Shown one piece after another: positions 371 to 9,421 of a DNA stretch of 21,692 bases. The first letter of the stretch is position 1; every line of letters begins with the position of its first letter. Below the pieces are notes generated by a model that was not told the DNA's origin, did no database searches, and was given only the letters and a program-made list of their open reading frames with translations. The DNA is from Eudoraea sp. (lineage in GTDB: Bacteria > Bacteroidota > Bacteroidia > Flavobacteriales > Flavobacteriaceae): the NCBI GenBank assembly GCA_013042125.1, contig JABDQS010000097.1, forward strand, positions 1 to 21,692, given 5' to 3'. The position numbers were made by a program, and so were the translations under genes.

Positions 371-378
371 TACATTTG
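371..378 (+). promoter_or_regulatory. Bacteroidota -7 promoter element upstream of the arginine operon
   Basis: TACATTTG is a perfect match to the Bacteroidota -7 consensus TAnnTTTG. No clear TTG (-33) is found 17-23 bases upstream; only weak T-rich sequence (TTAGTTC at 353-359) lies nearby. If used, transcription would start about 4-8 bases after the element, at about 382-386, which is right at the ATG of the leader ORF at 385. It is the only perfect match I see between the upstream gene and the first operon gene. Confidence 0.5.
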
Positions 379-384
379 AGGTTC

Positions 385-468
385 ATGATAACCAATGCAC
401 ACACGTATACGAATCAAAGAATAGCCTCCGGGGCTGCTTCTTTTGTGCCAACTCGTCGTCGCCCGTAA
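385..468 (+). CDS. Candidate arginine leader peptide (27 aa, ends T-R-R-R-P)
   Basis: This is a 27-codon ORF from ATG 385 to TAA 466-468, lying between a -7 promoter element and the first gene of the arginine operon. The peptide begins MITNAHTYTNQ and ends SFVPTRRRP. Arg24-26 are encoded by CGT CGT CGC at 454-462, followed by Pro27 and stop. A short upstream ORF with a run of codons for the end product of the operon is the hallmark of ribosome-mediated attenuation, as in the his, trp and leu leaders of other bacteria. Slow Arg-tRNA supply would stall a ribosome on the CGT/CGC run and cover the hairpin at 460-473. Arg12 (AGA) is the only other Arg. The predicted start of transcription leaves almost no 5' UTR. 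No homologue could be searched, so the ORF is supported by position, codon content and the overlapping RNA structure only. Confidence 0.6.
   Translation: MITNAHTYTNQRIASGAASFVPTRRRP
415..445 (+). promoter_or_regulatory. Leader RNA hairpin 1 (inside the leader ORF)
   Basis: AGCC (423-426) pairs with GGCT (432-435) around a short CCGG-containing loop. The stem extends outward through T422-G436, a bulged C437, AAAGAA (416-421) with TTCTTT (438-443), a bulged T444, and C415-G445. This gives about 12 pairs. It lies inside the leader ORF, upstream of the Arg codons, so a translating ribosome would melt it. It could act as a polymerase pause hairpin. Confidence 0.45.
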
Positions 469-473: not shown

Positions 474-485
474 CTCCTCTCTCAT

Positions 486-555: not shown

Positions 556-1170
556 ATGGACATTGTAATTGCTAACGAATCACATATTAAATACGCTACG
601 GTTATTAGCGAAACAATCTCAGAATCTGCCAAGGTAAGGGGTACAGGTATTGCTAAAAGAACGCCCGATTATATAATCAAAAGGCTGGTAAATGGTAATG
701 CGGTCATAGCGCTGGATGAGGATACGTTTGCGGGCTTTTGCTATATAGAGGTTTGGGGGCATCAGAAATTTGTGGCCAATTCCGGACTAATTGTCCATCC
801 TGATTATCGCAATCAGGGACTGGCAAAAAAAATTAAAAAGGCCATTTTTGAACTATCTCTAAAAAAATTTCCGGAAGCAAAGATCTTTGGCATCACAACA
901 GGCTTGGCGGTGATGAAAATGAATTATGAACTGGGTTACAAGCCAGTTACCTTTTCGGAGCTAACAGAAGATCCTGATTTTTGGAAGGGTTGCCAGACCT
1001 GTAAGAACTTTGATATCCTAACAAGGACAGAACGGAAAATGTGCCTTTGTACAGGAATGTTATATGATCCTGCTTTTAAAGGAAAAAAACAAAAAAAGAA
1101 AGTTAACAGAAAGGCCTTTCAGCGATTAACGAGTATTAAAGAGCAACTTTTCCTCAAAAAGAAAAAATAA
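556..1170 (+). CDS. GNAT-family N-acyltransferase, candidate N-acylglutamate synthase, first gene of the arginine operon
   Basis: This 204-residue protein has a GNAT fold: beta-strand region with IVIANESHIKYA at the start, a central strand FCYIEVWG (61-68), and the acetyl-CoA pyrophosphate-binding motif RNQGLA (residues 85-90, fitting Q/R-x-x-G-x-G/A). After the GNAT core comes a Cys group, C146-x2-C149 and C163-x-C165, that could bind zinc, then a very basic tail ending KKKK. ArgJ is absent here and the pathway uses an N-acyl-ornithine carbamoyltransferase, so a separate enzyme must acylate glutamate. Being first in the operon, 4 bases ahead of argG, makes this protein the natural candidate for that ArgA step, with acetyl-CoA or succinyl-CoA as donor. 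The family is seen; the substrate is inferred from context. The tail is encoded across two A7 tracts (1083-1089 and 1091-1097). Confidence 0.8.
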   Translation: MDIVIANESHIKYATVISETISESAKVRGTGIAKRTPDYIIKRLVNGNAVIALDEDTFAGFCYIEVWGHQKFVANSGLIVHPDYRNQGLAKKIKKAIFELSLKKFPEAKIFGITTGLAVMKMNYELGYKPVTFSELTEDPDFWKGCQTCKNFDILTRTERKMCLCTGMLYDPAFKGKKQKKKVNRKAFQRLTSIKEQLFLKKKK

Positions 1171-1174
1171 CAAC

Positions 1175-2386
1175 ATGAACACTTCAAACAAAAACAACAA
1201 GAAATTAGTCCTGGCTTACAGTGGTGGGCTAGACACTTCCTACTGTGCTTTGCATCTTTCACAGGACCAGGGGTATGAGGTACATGCTGTTAGTGTAAAT
1301 ACCGGGGGTTTTGACGATGATGAGATTCAGGATATTAAGGAGAAGGCTTTACAATTAGGAGCGCACTCATACAATTCCATTGATGCTATTCAAACCTTTT
1401 ACGACACCGTAGTTAAATACCTCATCTTTGGAAACGTGCTGCGTAATAACACCTATCCATTAAGTGTAAGTGCAGAACGAATTGTTCAGGCGATCGAAAT
1501 TGTGAAGTACGCACAAAAAATAGGTGCTAATGCAATTGCCCATGGAAGTACAGGTGCCGGAAATGATCAGGTGCGTTTTGATATGATCTTTCAGATCATT
1601 GCACCGGAAATTGAGATCATAACCCCTATCCGGGATAACAAACTTTCCAGAGAAGCTGAGATCAACTACCTTCAGAAACACGGAATATCCTATTCCTGGG
1701 AAAAAGCACAGTATTCCATAAATAAAGGCCTTTGGGGAACCTCTGTAGGGGGTGTAGAAACACTCACTTCCGAGAAGGGACTTCCATCTGAAGCCTATCC
1801 CAGTCAACTGAAGTCTCAGAAGCCTAAAGATGTAAAACTCTCCTTTACCAAAGGCGAACTCACTGCAATTGACGGGAAGCCAGGTAGTCCGGTTCAAAAC
1901 ATTGAAAAATTACAGGAATTAACTGCTTCATATGCCATTGGCCGCGATATTCATGTGGGTGATACTATCATAGGGATCAAAGGAAGAGTAGGCTTTGAAG
2001 CCGCAGCACCGTTAGTTATCCTAAAAGCTCATCACCTCCTGGAAAAACATACCCTGAGCAAATGGCAACAGTTTCAAAAAGAACAATTAGGAAACTTTTA
2101 TGGAATGCTATTACATGAAGGAAATTATCTGGATGAAGTTATGAGGAATATTGAAGCCTTTCTGACCGATACACAAAAAAATGTGAGTGGTGACGTTTTT
2201 GTTACCCTCCACCCTTACAGATTTGAACTTAATGGTATCCAATCCAAATATGATCTGATGGCGGCTTCTTTTGGAAGTTATGGGGAAATGAATAAGGCCT
2301 GGACGGCCAACGACGCAAAAGGATTTATAAAGATCCTATCGAATCCTGCAAAAATAGCAACCCAGGTAAATAAACATCATGATTAA
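1175..2386 (+). CDS. argG: Argininosuccinate synthase
   Basis: It joins citrulline and aspartate using ATP to form argininosuccinate, the next to last step of arginine synthesis, in the cytoplasm. The N-terminal ATP pyrophosphatase motif is intact as AYSGGLDTS (residues 14-22). Other family signatures are NNTYPLSVSAERIVQA, HGSTGAGNDQVRFD (ligand-binding loop) and TPIRD. At 403 residues it has the usual length. Only four bases separate it from the GNAT gene, and its last 8 bases overlap argC, so the genes are co-transcribed and probably translationally coupled. The citrulline substrate must be the deacylated product of ArgE in this pathway. Confidence 0.96.
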   Translation: MNTSNKNNKKLVLAYSGGLDTSYCALHLSQDQGYEVHAVSVNTGGFDDDEIQDIKEKALQLGAHSYNSIDAIQTFYDTVVKYLIFGNVLRNNTYPLSVSAERIVQAIEIVKYAQKIGANAIAHGSTGAGNDQVRFDMIFQIIAPEIEIITPIRDNKLSREAEINYLQKHGISYSWEKAQYSINKGLWGTSVGGVETLTSEKGLPSEAYPSQLKSQKPKDVKLSFTKGELTAIDGKPGSPVQNIEKLQELTASYAIGRDIHVGDTIIGIKGRVGFEAAAPLVILKAHHLLEKHTLSKWQQFQKEQLGNFYGMLLHEGNYLDEVMRNIEAFLTDTQKNVSGDVFVTLHPYRFELNGIQSKYDLMAASFGSYGEMNKAWTANDAKGFIKILSNPAKIATQVNKHHD

Positions 2387-3353
2387 CGCGGGTATTATAG
2401 GTGGTTCCGGATATACCGGCGGTGAGTTGATCAGACTCCTGATAAATCATTCTCAGGTAGAGATCAAATTTGTGTACAGCACCACAAGGGCGGGAACAAA
2501 AGTTTCAGCCACTCATTCTGATCTTCTTGGACAAACTGAATTGTTGTTTAGCGATGAGGTTGATCATAATATTGACCTGGTATTCTTATGCTTAGGTCAC
2601 GGAAACTCAACAAAATTTTTACAAAAGCATCCATTCTCAGAGACTACAAGGATCATTGACCTTAGTAATGATTTCAGATTGGAAGCAAACAGTTCCTTTG
2701 AAAGCAGAGAATTTGTGTATGGGCTTCCTGAACTCAACAGAGATCAGATTCAGAAGACCAAGTATCTAGCTAATCCGGGATGTTTTGCCACTGCTATTCA
2801 ATTGGCTTTACTGCCACTTGCCAACGCAAAACTAGTGAACAATGCGGTCCATATCAATGCAACAACAGGAAGTACCGGTGCAGGAGTTGGCCTCTCTCCT
2901 ACTACCCACTTCAGTTGGCGCGAAAACAATATGTCACATTACAAAGCCTTTACTCATCAACATCTGGGTGAGATCAACGAAAGTCTGGAGCACTTACAAA
3001 AAAATAAAGGTAAGCTACTATTCATTCCCAACCGTGGGAATTTTACCAGAGGTATTTGGGCCACAGCTTATACACAATACAAAGGAAGTGAGAGCGAGGC
3101 AATTGGTCTGTTTAAAGACTTTTACAAAGAAGCGCCTTTTACACAGCTCTCTGAAGAAGCTATTGCGTTAAAACAAGTGGTCAACACCAATTACTGTCAC
3201 CTGCATGTAGTAGTGCATGATGAAATGATCCTGATTGCTTCGGCAATAGACAACTTGCTCAAAGGAGCCAGCGGCCAGGCAGTACAAAATATGAACCTTA
3301 TGTTTGGTTTTCCTGAAACGGAAGGCCTACACTTAAAGTCGGGTGTATATTAA
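2379..3353 (+). CDS. argC: N-acyl-gamma-glutamyl-phosphate reductase
   Basis: It reduces N-acylglutamyl phosphate to the semialdehyde with NADPH, the third step of arginine synthesis. The nucleotide-binding loop GGSGYTGGEL is at residues 8-17. The catalytic cysteine is C135 in the motif NPGCFATA, and the conserved active-site His region is YKAFTHQHLGEI (188-199). The C-terminal half carries FIPNRGNFTRGI, a known family signature. At 324 residues it is the compact form found in Bacteroidota. The start overlaps the argG end by 8 bases, which supports this ATG. Its stop codon lies inside the loop of a perfect 8-bp hairpin (3337-3362). Confidence 0.95.
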   Translation: MINAGIIGGSGYTGGELIRLLINHSQVEIKFVYSTTRAGTKVSATHSDLLGQTELLFSDEVDHNIDLVFLCLGHGNSTKFLQKHPFSETTRIIDLSNDFRLEANSSFESREFVYGLPELNRDQIQKTKYLANPGCFATAIQLALLPLANAKLVNNAVHINATTGSTGAGVGLSPTTHFSWRENNMSHYKAFTHQHLGEINESLEHLQKNKGKLLFIPNRGNFTRGIWATAYTQYKGSESEAIGLFKDFYKEAPFTQLSEEAIALKQVVNTNYCHLHVVVHDEMILIASAIDNLLKGASGQAVQNMNLMFGFPETEGLHLKSGVY

Positions 3354-3400: not shown

Positions 3401-4195
3401 ATGAAAATAGCCATCATTGGAGCCGGGAACCTGGGAATATCCATTGCAGAAGGTGTATTACACAGCAATGGAGCAACTACCATGCATCTCACCAAAAGAC
3501 ACCCGGACACTATCAAGAATTATGAGAAATATGGAAATGTCACCGTTTCATCAGACAATTCCCTGGCAGTAAAACAATCAGACATTCTAATATTTTCAGT
3601 ACAACCCGGGCATTTTGAACAGATCTTAAATGAGATCAAAGAGCATCTCACTGAGAAGCATGTCATTATCTCAACCATCACAGGATTCAGCATTGACAAG
3701 ATCGAATCGATTATAGGGAAGGATACCTTTATCATTCGAAGTATGCCAAACACAGCTATTTCAGTGGGCAAGTCCATGACCTGTTTATGCAGTAATGAAA
3801 TGGGAGCAAAACGCATCGATCTTGCCAAGGCGATCTTTAATAGAATGGGGAATTCCATGGAGATACCTGAAAGCCAGATGCAGGCTGCTACAGTAATATG
3901 TGCAAGTGGCATCGCTTTTTGGATGCGACTTATCCGAGCCACCACTCAGGGAGCCATTCAATTGGGGTTTGATGCGAAAGAGGCGCAAGAATTAGCCATG
4001 CACACCTGTAATGGGGCAGCTGCCTTATTGATAGAATCCGGGAATCATCCGGAAGAAGAAATTGATAGAGTAACAACTCCAATGGGATGTACCATTGAAG
4101 GCTTGAATGAAATGGAACACCAGGGCTTAAGCTCTTCTCTCATACGAGGAATTGTTACTTCATTCGAGAAGATCAGTCAGATTAGAAAAGGTTAA
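3401..4195 (+). CDS. proC: Pyrroline-5-carboxylate reductase
   Basis: It reduces 1-pyrroline-5-carboxylate to proline with NAD(P)H. The N-terminal Rossmann motif is GAGNLG (residues 7-12), and the C-terminal dimerisation/substrate region has VTTPMGCTIEGLNEMEHQGL, matching the family signature VTSPGGTT-x-x-GL. Length is 264 residues, normal for ProC. It is a proline enzyme embedded between argC and argD. The link may be that glutamate semialdehyde/ornithine metabolism feeds both products, or that the enzyme handles cyclised semialdehydes made nearby. The gene follows argC after 47 bases with a hairpin in between, and ends one base before argD starts. ProC identity is clear; a modified role in this operon is only a thought. 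Confidence 0.92.
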   Translation: MKIAIIGAGNLGISIAEGVLHSNGATTMHLTKRHPDTIKNYEKYGNVTVSSDNSLAVKQSDILIFSVQPGHFEQILNEIKEHLTEKHVIISTITGFSIDKIESIIGKDTFIIRSMPNTAISVGKSMTCLCSNEMGAKRIDLAKAIFNRMGNSMEIPESQMQAATVICASGIAFWMRLIRATTQGAIQLGFDAKEAQELAMHTCNGAAALLIESGNHPEEEIDRVTTPMGCTIEGLNEMEHQGLSSSLIRGIVTSFEKISQIRKG

Positions 4196-4196
4196 T

Positions 4197-5324
4197 ATGA
4201 AACTCTTCGACGTATACCCGTTGTACGATATAACACCAGTCTCTGCAGAAGGAGTGATCCTCACGGATGATAAGGGTCAGGACTACCTTGATCTATACGG
4301 GGGTCATGCTGTCATATCTATAGGGCATAAGCATCCGCATTATGTAAAGCGACTCAAAGACCAAATAGATCGGATCGGGTTTTATAGCAATGCCGTCCAA
4401 AATCCTTTGCAACAAGCACTGGCTAAAAAATTGGGCAGTCTTTCGGGCTGCGATGATTATCAGCTATTTATGTGTAATTCCGGAGCAGAAGCCAATGAGA
4501 ATGCCCTTAAACTTGCATCTTTTCACACTGGAAAATCGAGGATCGTGGCTTTTCATAATAGTTTCCATGGACGCACCTCCGCGGCAGTGGCCACTACAGA
4601 TAATCCCGCCATAAACGCCCCAATCAACAAACAGCAAAAGGTCACCTTTTTATCGTTCGAAGATACCCCGGGTTTAAAGCAAGAGTTAAAAAAAGATGAT
4701 GTCTGTGCCGTGATCATGGAGGCAATTCAAGGAGTAGGTGGTTTGGATGAGCCTTCTGCCGGCTTCTACCAGGAGGTAGCTCAAATTTGTAAGGAACACG
4801 AAGTAGTTCTAATCGCAGATGAAGTTCAATCTGGCTTTGGAAGAAGCGGCAAATTCTTCGCCTATCAACATCATGCTATTGAGCCAGACATAATCTCCAT
4901 AGCTAAAGGGATGGGTAACGGGTTTCCTGTAGGTGGTATTTTGATCCATCCAAAGTTCAAAGCTTCTTACGGAATGCTCGGAACTACCTTTGGGGGTAAT
5001 CATTTAGCATGCGCAGCTACCCTGGCAGTCTTGGAAGTTTTAGAACAAGAGAACCTTATTTCAAATGCTGAGAAACTTGGGGTCTATTTTAAGCAAAAAG
5101 CAAATGAAATACCTCAGGTAAAACGAGTAAAAGGAAAGGGGCTGATGCTCGGACTGGAATTTGATTTTGAAGTGGCTCCATTGAGAAAAAAACTCATCTA
5201 TGATCAGCATGTTTTCACCGGTAGCGCAAAAGACAAAAAAGTACTGCGCATACTCCCAGCTCTTACTATTAATAAAGCTCATTTAAATCATTTTTTCGAT
5301 GCTCTAAAACAGGAATTATCATGA
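4197..5324 (+). CDS. argD: N-acylornithine aminotransferase (PLP-dependent)
   Basis: It transfers an amino group from glutamate to N-acylglutamate semialdehyde, giving N-acylornithine. It is a class III aminotransferase of 375 residues. Visible signatures: GAEANENALKLA (96-107) and FHGRTSAA at the PLP phosphate and ring sites, IADEVQSGFGRSG (206-218) with the Asp that contacts the pyridine nitrogen, and SIAKGMGNGFPVGG with Schiff-base lysine K237. An in-frame start 15 codons upstream (4152) is possible but would overlap proC; the ATG at 4197, one base after the proC stop, starts directly with MKLFDVYPLYDI, the usual beginning of the family. The last 4 bases form an ATGA overlap with the carbamoyltransferase gene. 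Confidence 0.95.
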   Translation: MKLFDVYPLYDITPVSAEGVILTDDKGQDYLDLYGGHAVISIGHKHPHYVKRLKDQIDRIGFYSNAVQNPLQQALAKKLGSLSGCDDYQLFMCNSGAEANENALKLASFHTGKSRIVAFHNSFHGRTSAAVATTDNPAINAPINKQQKVTFLSFEDTPGLKQELKKDDVCAVIMEAIQGVGGLDEPSAGFYQEVAQICKEHEVVLIADEVQSGFGRSGKFFAYQHHAIEPDIISIAKGMGNGFPVGGILIHPKFKASYGMLGTTFGGNHLACAATLAVLEVLEQENLISNAEKLGVYFKQKANEIPQVKRVKGKGLMLGLEFDFEVAPLRKKLIYDQHVFTGSAKDKKVLRILPALTINKAHLNHFFDALKQELS

Positions 5325-6262
5325 AGCATTACGTCACAGTAAACGACATAGATTCTTCCAGCGATTGGATAGACCTAGCCGGGGAATTGAAGAAAGACCC
5401 GTTTAAGTATAAAGAGTTAGGCCGGGGTAAATCCATTGGCTTGTTGTTCTTTAACAATAGCTTGCGGACCCGACTTAGCACACAAAAAGCAGCTTTTCAT
5501 TTAGGGATGCACTGCATGATCATGAATTTTGGCAGTGAAGGATGGGCGCTCGAATTTGAAGATGGCACCATCATGGATCAGGGCAAAGCAGAACATATCC
5601 GCGAAGCAGCTCAAGTGGTCTCTCAGTACTGTGATGTTTTGGGAGTTAGAGCCTTCGCCTCCTTATCGAACAAAGAGCAAGATGAAGCAGAGATAGTGTT
5701 GAATGGATTTAAGAAATACGCCACTATTCCTGTATTAAATATGGAAAGTGCAATAGAACATCCTTTGCAGGCCCTTGCGGATCTGATCACAATTGCCGAA
5801 AAAACTGAAAAAAAGAGTCCTAAAGTTGTATTGTCATGGGCACCACATCCTAAGGCCCTTCCACATGCGGTGGCTAATTCCTTTGTGAAGATCATGAAAC
5901 AGAATTCGCAGTTCAATTTTAGTATCACTCATCCCCAGGGATATGAACTCAATCCAGACATCACTAAAGATGTGCCAATTGTGTATGATCAGGAGGAAGC
6001 CCTTGCGGAAGCCGACTTTGTCTATGTTAAGAATTGGAGCAGTTATAGTTCATACGGAAAAGTACTAAGCACAGACCCACATTGGATGATCACAAAGGAG
6101 AAGTTGGGCCAAGCGCAGTTCATGCATTGTTTACCCGTACGGCGAAATGTAGTTGTGGAAGACGCTGTGCTCAACGGCGACCAATCATTGGTCATGGAGC
6201 AAGCAAATAATAGAACTTTTGCGGCTCAGGTAGCTCTCTATAAAATATTAAAAGGATTATGA
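5321..6262 (+). CDS. argF': N-acylornithine carbamoyltransferase, probably N-succinylornithine type
   Basis: It carbamoylates N-acylornithine to N-acylcitrulline. This is the Bacteroidota/Xanthomonas type of transcarbamylase, not a classical OTCase. The carbamoyl-phosphate motif is SLRTR (47-51), followed by the core region HPLQALADL (147-155) and HCLPVRRN (269-276). The protein (313 residues) follows the known Bacteroides fragilis succinylornithine enzyme along its length as I remember that sequence. The residue that decides substrate choice is Pro90 in B. fragilis (succinyl) and Glu92 in Xanthomonas (acetyl). Here the aligned motif MDQGKAEHIREA has Ala90. In published mutational work small residues at this place gave succinyl specificity, so N-succinylornithine is the more likely substrate. 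It has ATGA overlaps with both argD and argB. Confidence 0.93.
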   Translation: MKHYVTVNDIDSSSDWIDLAGELKKDPFKYKELGRGKSIGLLFFNNSLRTRLSTQKAAFHLGMHCMIMNFGSEGWALEFEDGTIMDQGKAEHIREAAQVVSQYCDVLGVRAFASLSNKEQDEAEIVLNGFKKYATIPVLNMESAIEHPLQALADLITIAEKTEKKSPKVVLSWAPHPKALPHAVANSFVKIMKQNSQFNFSITHPQGYELNPDITKDVPIVYDQEEALAEADFVYVKNWSSYSSYGKVLSTDPHWMITKEKLGQAQFMHCLPVRRNVVVEDAVLNGDQSLVMEQANNRTFAAQVALYKILKGL

Positions 6263-7038
6263 AACCTTCATTATCTATTGTAAAAATAGGAGGAAACATC
6301 ATTGAAAATGAGAAAGAGTTAGCTCGTTTTATGATCCTCTTCTCCCAAATTGAAGGACACAAGATCCTGGTACATGGTGGTGGTAAAAAGGCCACGTCAA
6401 TGGCTGAAAAAATGGGAATAAAGACCACCATGGTGAAGGGAAGACGCATCACAGATAGGAAAAGTCTGGAAGTAGCTGTGATGATCTACGGCGGACTGGT
6501 AAATAAATCAATAGTAGCAACATTACAGGCCCTGTCATGTAATGCCATTGGTCTTAGTGGTGCTGATGCAGGGATCATCGAAGCAGTAAAACGACCTGTA
6601 GAATCGGTAGATTTTGGATTTGTTGGTGATATTGTATCGGTACATACAAAAGCCCTCTTAAATTTTGTACAAACAGGTTTAGTCCCTGTTTTTTGTGCCC
6701 TGTCTCATGATGGAAAAGGTCAATTACTAAATACGAATGCAGATACCATTGCTTCTGAACTAGCCATCGCCTTATCTGAAGAATATACCACCACCCTGTA
6801 TTACTGTTTTGAAAAACCGGGAGTATTAAGTGATGTAGCGAGCGACAATTCTGTTATTTCGCATATCAATAAACAGACCTATTATAGCCTTTTAAAGGAG
6901 CAGACAATTGCTGATGGTATGTTGCCTAAATTGGAAAATTGCTTTTATGCATTAGACCATTCTGTACATAAAGTATGTATTGGCAATATGCAAATGTTGC
7001 TCCCACATTCTACAACCTATACAACCCTTACCCTATGA
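6259..7038 (+). CDS. argB: N-acylglutamate kinase
   Basis: It phosphorylates N-acylglutamate with ATP, the second step of arginine synthesis. The amino acid kinase fold is shown by KIGGN (9-13), the glycine loop HGGGKK (39-44), the substrate-binding loop LLNTNADTIASELA (156-169), and GMLPKLE with K224 near the C-terminus. At 259 residues it lacks the N-terminal helix that arginine-inhibited kinases use for hexamer formation. Feedback inhibition at this step is therefore not expected, which would make transcriptional control of the operon more important. ATGA overlaps join it to argF' and argE. If the pathway is succinylated, the substrate would be N-succinylglutamate. Confidence 0.94.
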   Translation: MKPSLSIVKIGGNIIENEKELARFMILFSQIEGHKILVHGGGKKATSMAEKMGIKTTMVKGRRITDRKSLEVAVMIYGGLVNKSIVATLQALSCNAIGLSGADAGIIEAVKRPVESVDFGFVGDIVSVHTKALLNFVQTGLVPVFCALSHDGKGQLLNTNADTIASELAIALSEEYTTTLYYCFEKPGVLSDVASDNSVISHINKQTYYSLLKEQTIADGMLPKLENCFYALDHSVHKVCIGNMQMLLPHSTTYTTLTL

Positions 7039-8111
7039 AGCAAGATGTTACACAATTAACAAAAAATGCCATCTTATTATTGAACGAACTAATTGCGACT
7101 CCTTCGTTCTCTTCTGAGGAAAATAAAACCGCTCTGCTCATTGAAAAGTGGTTCACTACAAATGAAATTCAGTATAAAAGAGAGAACAACAATGTGTACG
7201 CTTTTAATAAATACTTTGACAAAGCTAAGCCTACATTGCTTTTGAATTCTCACCACGACACCGTAAAACCAAATTCGGCTTATACCAAGGATCCTTTTTT
7301 ACCTCAAGTGGAAGATGGTAAACTCTATGGCCTTGGCAGTAATGATGCCGGTGGAGCGCTGGTTTCCCTGATCGCTACTTTTACCTATTTCTATGAAGAG
7401 AAGAACCTATCGCACAACCTCATCATTGTAGCTTCAGCGGAAGAAGAGAGTTCCGGTCCTAATGGCCTTAATTCCATGCTTAAGATTCTTCCTGAGATTT
7501 CGTTGGCTATTGTTGGCGAACCAACGTTGATGCAACTTGCGATCGCAGAAAAAGGATTGGTCGTCTTTGATGCAGAAGTTAAAGGCACCCCTTCCCATGC
7601 AGCACATCCTAATGATAATAGTGCAATTTATAATTGTATTGATGTCCTGGCCTGGTTTAAAAACTATCGATTTCAAAAAGTGTCTGATGTTTTGGGAGAG
7701 GTAAAAGTTACAGTTACTCAAATAAATGGCGGAAGTCAACATAACGTAGTACCGGCCAAGGTAGATCTCGTCATTGACGTTAGAGTAAATGATTGTTATA
7801 CCAACAAGGAAATTGTTGCTATTCTGCAAAAAGATGCTCCGTGTAAAGTAACCCCTCGCTCCTTGCGCTTAAACTCTTCATCTATACCTAAAGAGCATCC
7901 ATTGGTACTTTCAGGATTGTCCCTGGGAAGAACAACCTACGGGTCACCAACCCTATCAGATCAGGCGGCACTAAGTTGTCCGTCCTTAAAATTAGGTCCG
8001 GGAGACAGTACACGTTCACATAGTGCAGACGAATATATTTTCGTATCTGAAATTGAAGAAGGAATACAGTTGTATATCAACTTATTAAAAGGATTTATAA
8101 TTACAGAATAA
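7035..8111 (+). CDS. argE: N-acylornithine/N-acylcitrulline deacylase (M20 metallopeptidase family)
   Basis: It removes the acyl group from the pathway intermediate; after an N-acylornithine carbamoyltransferase the substrate is N-acylcitrulline. The M20 zinc enzyme signatures are complete: SHHDTVKP (H73, D75), the bridging aspartate D104 in GSNDAGG, the catalytic glutamate region SAEEESS (134-140), GEPT (161-164) and the late GPGDSTRSHSADE with a metal-ligand His. A longer reading from 6975 would run 60 bases into argB; the ATG at 7035 forms an ATGA overlap like the two preceding joints and starts just before the conserved domain, so 358 residues is preferred. Whether it prefers acetyl or succinyl groups cannot be read from the sequence. 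Confidence 0.93.
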   Translation: MKQDVTQLTKNAILLLNELIATPSFSSEENKTALLIEKWFTTNEIQYKRENNNVYAFNKYFDKAKPTLLLNSHHDTVKPNSAYTKDPFLPQVEDGKLYGLGSNDAGGALVSLIATFTYFYEEKNLSHNLIIVASAEEESSGPNGLNSMLKILPEISLAIVGEPTLMQLAIAEKGLVVFDAEVKGTPSHAAHPNDNSAIYNCIDVLAWFKNYRFQKVSDVLGEVKVTVTQINGGSQHNVVPAKVDLVIDVRVNDCYTNKEIVAILQKDAPCKVTPRSLRLNSSSIPKEHPLVLSGLSLGRTTYGSPTLSDQAALSCPSLKLGPGDSTRSHSADEYIFVSEIEEGIQLYINLLKGFIITE

Positions 8112-8140: not shown

Positions 8141-9421
8141 ATGAAACTTTGGGAAAAAGGAATGAAAACGAATGAGAAGATAGATCGTTTTACCGTGGGA
8201 AATGACAGGGAACTGGATCTTGTCCTTGCAGAGTATGACGTAAGAGCATCCAAAGCTCATGCCAATATGCTGGGCTCAATAGGATTGCTAACAAAAGAAG
8301 AAAATCTTGCCATGATATCTGCTCTTGATGAAGTTCATGATTCTATTGAAAAAGGGGAGTTTACCATAGAAGGATCCTTTGAGGATATGCATTCCAAAAT
8401 TGAATTTCTTCTCATACAAAAACTTGGTGATACAGGAAAAAAGATACATACTGCCCGTTCCCGAAATGATCAGGTATTAGTAGCAATGCAACTGTTCATA
8501 AAGGAAGAGCTACAGAGTGTAAAGAAACAAGTAAAGGAACTTTTTGAGGTATTGCTTCAATTAGCCGATAAGAATAAAAAAGTTCTCCTTCCGGGATATA
8601 CACATCTTCAGGTAGCCATGCCTTCTTCCTTTGGCCTTTGGTTTTCTGCCTATGCTGAAAGCCTTATTGATGATCTTTTTTTTGTAGATGCCGCTTTGAG
8701 GGTAGCAGATCAAAACCCGTTGGGTAGTGCGGCAGGTTATGGAAGTTCTTTCCCTATTGATCGGGAAATGACCACCCGGGAATTAAATTTTAGTACTCTT
8801 AAATACAACGTAGTAGCGGCACAAATGGGCCGGGGAAAAGTGGAAAAGGCCGCAGCTGTGGGGATGGCTGGTGTAGCTTCTACCCTATCGAAATTATCCA
8901 TGGACATCTGTTTGTACATGAGTCAGAATTTCAATTTTATTTCATTCCCTGATGATCTGACAACCGGAAGCAGTATTATGCCGCACAAAAAAAATCCGGA
9001 TGTTTTTGAATTGGTACGCGGCAAATGCAATGTAATACAAGCCCTGCCAAATGAATTGACCCTATTACTAACCAACTTGCCCAGCGGATATCACAGGGAC
9101 CTTCAGGTTACCAAGAATAGTCTGCTTCCTGCCCTGCAGGAATTAAAGGCATGTTTAGATATTTTGACATTCAGCCTTCCCAAGGCTGTGGTTCGGGAAG
9201 ATATTCTAGAGGATCCCAAATACGACCTTCTATTTACTGTAGATGCCTTAAATGATTTAGTGGTTCAGGGGATCCCGTTTAGGGACGCCTATAAACAGAT
9301 CGCATTAGAGGTAGAGGAAGGAAAATTTAAGTTTGGCAAAGATGCAAAGCATACGCACCAGGGAAGTATAGGCAACCTCTGCTTACAAGAGATCCGGGAT
9401 AAAATGAAGCTGATCTCCTAA
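8141..9421 (+). CDS. argH: Argininosuccinate lyase
   Basis: It splits argininosuccinate into arginine and fumarate, the last step. The fumarase/aspartase superfamily signature GSSIMPHKKNPD lies at 276-287. Other conserved parts are HTARSRNDQV (103-112), GYTHLQVAMP (152-161; H155 is the usual catalytic His region) and MGRGKVEKAAA. Length is 426 residues, somewhat shorter than the roughly 460 of Escherichia coli ArgH. It lies 29 bases after argE and is the last gene of the operon; the next gene is on the opposite strand. Confidence 0.95.
   Translation: MKLWEKGMKTNEKIDRFTVGNDRELDLVLAEYDVRASKAHANMLGSIGLLTKEENLAMISALDEVHDSIEKGEFTIEGSFEDMHSKIEFLLIQKLGDTGKKIHTARSRNDQVLVAMQLFIKEELQSVKKQVKELFEVLLQLADKNKKVLLPGYTHLQVAMPSSFGLWFSAYAESLIDDLFFVDAALRVADQNPLGSAAGYGSSFPIDREMTTRELNFSTLKYNVVAAQMGRGKVEKAAAVGMAGVASTLSKLSMDICLYMSQNFNFISFPDDLTTGSSIMPHKKNPDVFELVRGKCNVIQALPNELTLLLTNLPSGYHRDLQVTKNSLLPALQELKACLDILTFSLPKAVVREDILEDPKYDLLFTVDALNDLVVQGIPFRDAYKQIALEVEEGKFKFGKDAKHTHQGSIGNLCLQEIRDKMKLIS

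Follow-up and report, generated by a model that had tools for sequence, protein, structure and literature searches.

The window, a stretch of 21,692 nucleotides from Eudoraea sp., carries on its forward (+) strand an operon of arginine biosynthesis genes in the order GNAT-argG-argC-proC-argD-argF'-argB-argE-argH, as assigned by Pfam and NCBIfam models. The first gene (556..1170) encodes a GNAT acetyltransferase recognized by Pfam, with no NCBIfam match above the cut-off; its product is probably N-acetylglutamate synthase. It is followed by argG (1175..2386, Pfam/NCBIfam), argC (2379..3353, TIGR01850 above cut-off), proC (3401..4195, TIGR00112 above cut-off), an argD-type aminotransferase gene (4194..5324, Pfam/NCBIfam) and a carbamoyltransferase gene (5321..6262), whose nearest NCBIfam model is N-acetylornithine carbamoyltransferase, just below the cut-off. 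The last three genes are argB (6259..7038, TIGR00761 above cut-off), an argE-like M20 peptidase gene (7035..8111, Pfam/NCBIfam) and argH (8162..9421, TIGR00838 above cut-off). The earlier remark that ArgB lacks an N-terminal helix, one said to be tied to arginine inhibition, is compatible with the short N-terminus of the protein (position 3 of the NCBIfam argB model aligns with residue 7).

A short ORF at 385..468 (+), encoding the 27-codon peptide MITNAHTYTNQRIASGAASFVPTRRRP, precedes the operon, with ATG at 385-387 and TAA at 466-468. The peptide ends T-R-R-R-P-stop. Its Arg-Arg-Arg codons (454..462, +) are CGT (454-456), CGT (457-459) and CGC (460-462), and the Pro codon CCG (463-465) stands between the last of them and TAA. 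The end of the ORF is separated from the GNAT start by 87 nt. A Bacteroidota -7 promoter element, TACATTTG, lies at 371..378 (+), and the leader ATG is found 6 nt downstream of it. The original prediction of a 27-codon ORF ending in this way between a -7 box and the first arginine gene was thus confirmed from the sequence. In the probable promoters of Flavobacterium johnsoniae described in passages of PMC6847099, the -7 box is separated from the start site by 4 or 5 nt; together with the 6-nt gap between box and ATG, this spacing predicts a transcription start at 383-384 and a 5' UTR of 1-2 nt, so that the ORF would be nearly leaderless.

The same arrangement was found at all 80 named argG loci (Muriicola, Eudoraea, Maribacter, Arenibacter, Allomuricauda, Cellulophaga and others; close kin, with ArgG identity of at least 77%), where a P2 loop (see below) and an Arg-Pro-stop ORF occupy the leader position. 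Seventy-four of these loci fit the CGNCGCCC pattern, and six Eudoraea-type loci end RPRP-stop. A wider set of 206 distinct leaders was drawn from 250 loci; of the loci not included, nine were off-pattern and the others duplicates. A spurious row (L079) was removed from an earlier set of 207 leaders, and the statistics given below for 207 leaders still contain it. The pattern defining the 206 leaders requires GCCC and GGTGnGnCC; the Arg codon inside hairpin P1 and the core of hairpin P2 are therefore conserved in it by construction. TAnnTTTG stands 5-9 nt before an in-frame ATG in 80 of the 206 leaders and in none in the other two frames.

Conservation of the Arg codons follows the reading frame. 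With codon positions numbered from the Arg codon inside P1, 189 of the 206 leaders have an in-frame Arg codon at -1, 134 have one at -2 and 36 have one at -3; for -1 and -2 the corresponding counts are 1 and 6 in frame 1 and 0 and 0 in frame 2. At least one Arg codon is present at positions -8 to -5 in 150 leaders in frame versus 58 and 18 in the other frames. An out-of-frame AGG inside P1 also recurs (181 of 206). The entropy of codon -1 is 0.18, 0.44 and 1.13 bits for its three bases; the first two are conserved and the third varies, a pattern that CGN codons would produce but an unpaired RNA strand would not. Outside P1, the Arg codons are CGU (350), CGC (215), AGG (20), CGA (17), AGA (8) and CGG (4). 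CGU and CGC make up 565 of these 614 codons, while in argG of the named loci CGY accounts for 19% and AGR for 50% of Arg usage. This bias is not predicted by a simple depletion model alone.

Pro-stop is retained in 196 of the 206 leaders through seven spellings over UAA, UAG and UGA (CCGTAA 165, CCGTAG 11, CCTTAA 8, CCCTAG 6, CCTTAG 4, CCGTGA 1, CCCTAA 1), and in 10 leaders the ORF continues beyond the Pro-stop site of P1. The nine off-pattern loci (L014, L175, L270, L271, L272, L291, L297, L298 and L299), inspected by eye, end RRP-stop in four cases, RRT-stop in one and RRTxVRx-stop in four. Pro is replaced by Thr in L014, L270, L272, L297 and L298, and in four of these five the ORF extends to another Arg codon before its stop. 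Arg thus outlives Pro at the off-pattern loci. The terminal Pro, which had been suggested to slow release further, is common and not universal. The comparison of related genomes that had been proposed as a check found the ORF, its frame, its Arg codons and its position conserved while the remaining peptide drifts. Judged by comparison of sequences, the Arg-rich ORF before the arginine operon is real and conserved, and is not a chance occurrence.

Three RNA hairpins accompany the ORF. Sliding folds of 207 leaders, compared with dinucleotide shuffles, gave three stability peaks, which correspond to P0, P1 and P2. Hairpin P0 (416..443, +, core 423-435) lies inside the ORF and is seen in the fold, the stability peak and the all-pairs covariation scan. 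Its peak extends from -52 to -20 relative to P1 and reaches 2.15 kcal/mol below the shuffles; since the register of P0 shifts between genera, energy relative to shuffles was used rather than fixed columns. Hairpin P1 (460..473, +; CGCCC-GUAA-GGGUG), supported by the fold, leader comparison and compensatory forms, pairs C460-C464 with G469-G473. Its 5' strand holds the last Arg codon and the Pro codon, and UAA lies in its GUAA loop. A hairpin next to the Arg run had been noted; it is in fact built around the end of the run. Across the 207 leaders, the P1 loop usually carries the stop codon and is most often the tetraloop GUAA. P1 is nearly invariant in the 206 leaders, and five further loci (L014, L270, L272, L297, L298) have the compensatory form CGCAC/GUGCG.

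A pyrimidine- and U-rich linker (474..485, +; base profile of 207 leaders) leads to hairpin P2 (486..507, +), which leader comparison and covariation define as a covarying stem with a bulge and a nearly invariant GG-UGAGU-CC tip. P2 occurs once, at the leader position, in each of 11 genomes. In the 207 leaders, P1 and the P2 loop are 31-37 nt apart, and a median of about 50 nt separates the end of P2 from the GNAT start. The tip pairs GG/CC are changed to GA/UC in L175, L271 and L291; in L299 the tip is GA/UG, so that not both pairs are restored. The base after GGTG varies among the 207 leaders (166 GGTGAGTCC, 30 GGTGTGTCC, 8 GGTGCGTCC and 3 others), and GATG replaces GGTG in L175, L271, L291 and L299. 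By eye, the P2 loop resembles a Shine-Dalgarno site and also a sequence that could pair with the P1 5' strand; both ideas were dropped because of this variation and the four GATG loci. A candidate ORF overlapping P2 (484-543) was rejected, its ATG not being conserved.

The all-pairs covariation scan of the 206 leaders (effective number about 136) ranks the P2 stem first and P0 next. It revealed no alternative long-range helix and no four-part switch, with the nearly invariant parts hardly testable by such a scan. No U-tract follows P2 in the 207 leaders, and no convincing intrinsic terminator was found in the leader. Folded as a single sequence, 384-556 does not stand out (z = -0.26), so the hairpin signal comes from comparison. 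A known riboswitch or other Rfam element was also considered and rejected: no Rfam 15 family reached its gathering score in the window, and a lax search gave one sub-threshold match to an antisense RNA. At the loci of 20 relatives there was one Rfam match, Flavo-1 at L178, a locus without the P1/P2 pattern.

The leader is closely tied to the GNAT gene. The GNAT protein was matched in 34 of 60 relatives searched with it. A covariance model of the leader, R1, was built from 43 training leaders, some of them out of the genomes then searched. Within the window's own family, 26 of 37 genomes carry the GNAT gene and the same 26 an R1 leader; the other 11 have neither. In a draw of 299 Flavobacteriaceae genomes, the GNAT gene was found in 199 (with E values no better than about 7e-4 in G183 and G204) and R1 matches in 182, one match in each except for two in G034 and G209. 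R1 leaders are present in 180 of the 199 genomes with the GNAT gene versus 2 of the 100 without it (G115, a strong match, and G284, a weak one). The remaining 19 of 199 have the gene and no R1 match; few candidates were scored per genome in this search, and such misses may therefore be divergent leaders. All nine off-pattern loci match R1.

By tblastn, the GNAT gene begins no more than 200 nt past the leader in 204 of the 206, a proximity that is partly by construction, as some loci were fetched via the GNAT gene (L031-L110, L141-L164 and L193-L301 were fetched via argG or R1). The exceptions are L157, whose only GNAT match is weak and lies at a distance of 271 nt, and L211 in G115, which has none. 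L211 has a full leader followed by a different sequence, and no GNAT gene was found in its genome. Two loci of family f2 (L028, L029) carry, as read by eye, Arg-rich ORFs of the type TRRCAMxLxRRRRPVR upstream of the GNAT gene, and the P2 hairpin is absent there. The idea that P2 is a general element used elsewhere was rejected. Extra R1 matches lie inside unrelated coding genes (L139, L140) or between two genes unrelated to arginine (L137); the check covered these three and left out L138 and the second matches in G005, G006 and G209. A search for the 22-nt P2 in 38 genomes gave one non-leader site; it has 3 mismatches, and its genome lacks the GNAT gene.

Many leaders are preceded by another one. 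Among 126 leaders lacking a -7 box at the P1 ORF, 66 have a second Arg ORF ending 120-176 nt upstream of P1, defined as having 2 or more Arg among its 12 C-terminal residues (3 or more in 61 of the 66); a few of them, L059 and L225 included, look like chance ORFs. An example is MKNLKNKIRCTTPGLPVRNRRRF, and the general type is MKNLKNKIRCxTPGLPxRNRRRF-stop. In 55 of the 66, the second ATG lies 0-12 nt past a TAnnTTT box, most often 4-5 nt, which is the expected transcription start; the second ORF is thus apparently leaderless. In a separate count, such upstream ORFs with 4 or more Arg among the 12 C-terminal residues were present at 52 of 205 loci (shuffles average 0.7). Tandem Arg ORFs about 130 nt upstream of P1 were observed in L173, L198, L203, L266 and other Flavobacteriaceae loci.

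Arg codons before the GNAT gene extend beyond this family. In a draw of 247 genomes across the phylum, the GNAT gene is present in 103, of which 76 are outside Flavobacteriaceae. The best Arg-rich ORF in the 430 nt upstream was scored against 30 shuffles per locus at 71 loci, namely 69 of these 76 and two of genus g147; the seven unscored were L189-L192 (family f37, read by eye), G040, G476 and G484. In families f17, f18, f19, f22 and f37, 28 of 39 loci beat all their shuffles, and none of the other 32 did, a split into five families and the rest that was made after the scores were seen. The Arg codons are spelled differently in other families (CGG, CGA, AGG). Leaders of f37, such as MQNTLAHRIDFIPVRPIPRRR, use mostly CGG codons and have a different RNA architecture; L189-L192 end RRR-stop by eye. 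In L302, the ORF stretch AGAATTGAC pairs with GTCAATTCT, which lies about 90 nt downstream; in L302, L189, L190 and L192 this outer helix encloses CGG CGG CGG stop. Several f37 loci (e.g., L190 and L192) keep the same helix with changed sequence in both strands, though not every folded f37 locus does. Since other families keep Arg codons without P1 and P2, Arg codons before the GNAT gene are wider in distribution than the P1/P2 RNA. The sequences are compatible with both common descent and convergence of the Arg ORFs across families.

Genus g147 has another element at the site where other genera carry Arg leaders. A short conserved ORF, e.g., MNKISLHITSLSRTNSPITSPEVRTLSL (L176-L187, by eye), lies about 250-330 nt upstream of GNAT, and the Arg run is absent; this site may respond to a different signal.

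In bacteria, regulation of the arginine biosynthesis pathway is usually attributed to ArgR. No ArgR (PF01316) was found in any of the 60 relatives. In the phylum draw it is present in 93 of 247 genomes, with no match in f17, f18, f19, f22 and f37 and one weak match (G205) in the window's family. In the two f25 genomes, which lack an Arg leader, the GNAT gene is directly preceded by ArgR in the same orientation. This distribution is consistent with one control replacing the other, many lineages having neither.

Taken together, these data make it fairly probable, as far as sequence comparison can tell, that the locus is an arginine-sensing leader, in which ribosomes stalling on Arg codons control the operon; progress of the ribosome through these codons probably sets the output of the arginine pathway. 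A short ORF lies in the leader of the operon mRNA, the transcript being that predicted from the promoter, and its run of end-product codons is conserved while the rest drifts. In-frame Arg conservation, the several Pro-stop spellings and the tie to the operon (180/199 versus 2/100) argue for such control, as do the Arg codons kept where Pro-stop is lost, the five loci with compensatory P1, the different spellings of the Arg codons in other families, the absence of ArgR matches from the relatives and the five other leader families, and the tandem Arg ORF close to the predicted transcription start in many relatives. Against it stand the missing U-tract after P2, the weak P1 and the lack of a covarying alternative helix, as well as the CGU/CGC bias, the enrichment of an F-x-P-x-R-R motif (see below), the 19 genomes without a model match and the g147 gene without an Arg run. 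The ribosome-mediated attenuation proposed originally is therefore supported, by the conserved ORF and Arg codons and by the absence of ArgR matches in the 60 relatives, though a textbook terminator/antiterminator pair could not be made out.

Control by stalling could proceed as follows. Transcription would begin 1-2 nt before the AUG, and the ribosome could therefore load at once. P0 would then form within the ORF and probably pause RNA polymerase just before P1, by analogy with trp, keeping ribosome and polymerase in step. Past P0, and a second time where P1 begins, the ribosome would encounter Arg codons, which are conserved at both places. With enough Arg-tRNA, it would reach the stop codon, usually inside P1, and leave; when Arg-tRNA is short, it would stall on the Arg codons and alter both the formation of P1 and the RNA between ribosome and P2. 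P2, the most conserved RNA element, would relay this state to the operon. This output, the least certain step, would most likely act through access of Rho; alternatively, translation or RNA stability could be affected.

The peptide rather than the supply of Arg-tRNA could be the sensor. A nascent F-x-P-x-R-R-(R)-P chain, together with free arginine (or a relative) bound to the ribosome, would, in arginine excess, prevent release at Pro-stop, and the operon would be shut down by the ribosome held next to P2. The F-x-P-x-R-R motif occurs in 67 of 206 leaders versus a shuffled mean of 3.64 (max 7), an enrichment which hints that the peptide itself matters; outside the family, 10 of 29 Arg ORFs contain F-x-P-x-R versus 0.77 (max 4). 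Pro-stop in 196 of the leaders and the constant distance from P1 to the P2 loop point the same way, and the TnaC peptide also ends Arg-Pro-stop. However, the strict motif is missing in about two thirds of the leaders, 10 of 206 have no stop in P1, sequence beyond Arg and Pro drifts widely, and ORFs of other families end RRR-stop or run past the Arg run. Thr for Pro in five of the nine further loci, four with the stop moved on, slightly lowers the standing of this explanation, and peptide arrest is considered unlikely.

A special case of control by stalling is the classical intrinsic attenuator, in which P1 and the U-rich linker would form a terminator, a stalled ribosome would cover the P1 5' strand and P2 would have some other job. 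The GC core of P1, followed by the linker, and the position of the last Arg codon in the P1 5' strand fit this scheme. It is nevertheless quite improbable, as the P1 stem is short (4-5 bp, with A instead of G at position 13 in 46 of 207 leaders), the U run begins about 3 nt late and the terminator would precede P2, the most conserved element. An element made of RNA only, in which arginine or a protein is the ligand of P1 and P2 and the hairpin sequence CGYCGCCCGUAAGGG happens to spell Arg-Pro-stop, would explain the nearly invariant P2 tip, the nearly invariant P1 with its compensatory variants and the nearly universal single copy per genome, but it is very improbable given that Arg codons outside P1 are frame-specific with a varying third base, the stop is kept by several spellings and other families keep Arg codons without P1/P2.

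Among known systems, the trp, his, leu and thr leaders likewise have an ORF rich in codons of the pathway product before a biosynthetic operon, with hairpins; they differ from the present leader, where no terminator/antiterminator pair was found, P2 is conserved and the start is near-leaderless. To our knowledge, arginine is not among the classical cases of ribosome-mediated attenuation. The fungal arginine attenuator peptide lowers expression in high arginine. Like TnaC, it is a short peptide acting at a stop codon; kingdom or ligand differs, and both are likened here by description only.

By analogy, the closest worked example for the leader mechanism is speF. Passages of PMC6386406 describe that in Salmonella two consecutive Arg codons of a leader ORF can sense arginine, that Rho, RNA decay and a hairpin downstream of the stop codon are involved, and that the folding of this hairpin depends on ribosome position. 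The speF leader ORF (ORF34 in Salmonella, SpeFL; also in E. coli) shares with the present one its shortness and its consecutive Arg codons; there Rho and the post-stop hairpin act (PMC6386406). The gene controlled is ornithine decarboxylase in gammaproteobacteria, whereas here it is a biosynthetic operon. ORF34 has 34 amino acids, the Arg pair at codons 12-13 and a Shine-Dalgarno site, according to the same passages, unlike the Arg run at the stop and the nearly leaderless start found here. Its transcript starts 516 nt upstream of speF, and no RNA element common to both systems was seen. The HIRRT core of DUF2618 is absent from the leader peptide by reading, and the downstream genes differ from ornithine decarboxylase.

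In Flavobacterium psychrophilum, another member of Flavobacteriaceae, clues to leader-peptide attenuation before amino-acid operons were described among structured 5' regions, and the elements named in other genera include pheA and hisG, according to passages of PMC9723704. Its main text, supplements aside, has no argG and one unrelated mention of arginine. In the titles, abstract openings and passages searched, no report of an arginine leader peptide in Bacteroidota was found, and no earlier report of an Arg-codon leader with P1/P2 in this phylum.

A broader evolutionary picture can be offered as a tentative possibility. Bacteroidota without ArgR could share an old family of arginine-sensing leader peptides with an F-x-P-x-R-R core, partly acting as nascent-chain sensors; Flavobacteriaceae would have added a new P2 output without an intrinsic terminator, often in a tandem arrangement whose first leader is fully leaderless. 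If arginine sensing by these leaders is true, they would explain control of the arginine pathway in lineages of a major phylum where no ArgR was found. They would also be a case of attenuation with a nearly leaderless start, in organisms with mRNAs devoid of Shine-Dalgarno sites. The conserved P2 hairpin offers a ready target for finding how Bacteroidota convert ribosome position into gene expression.
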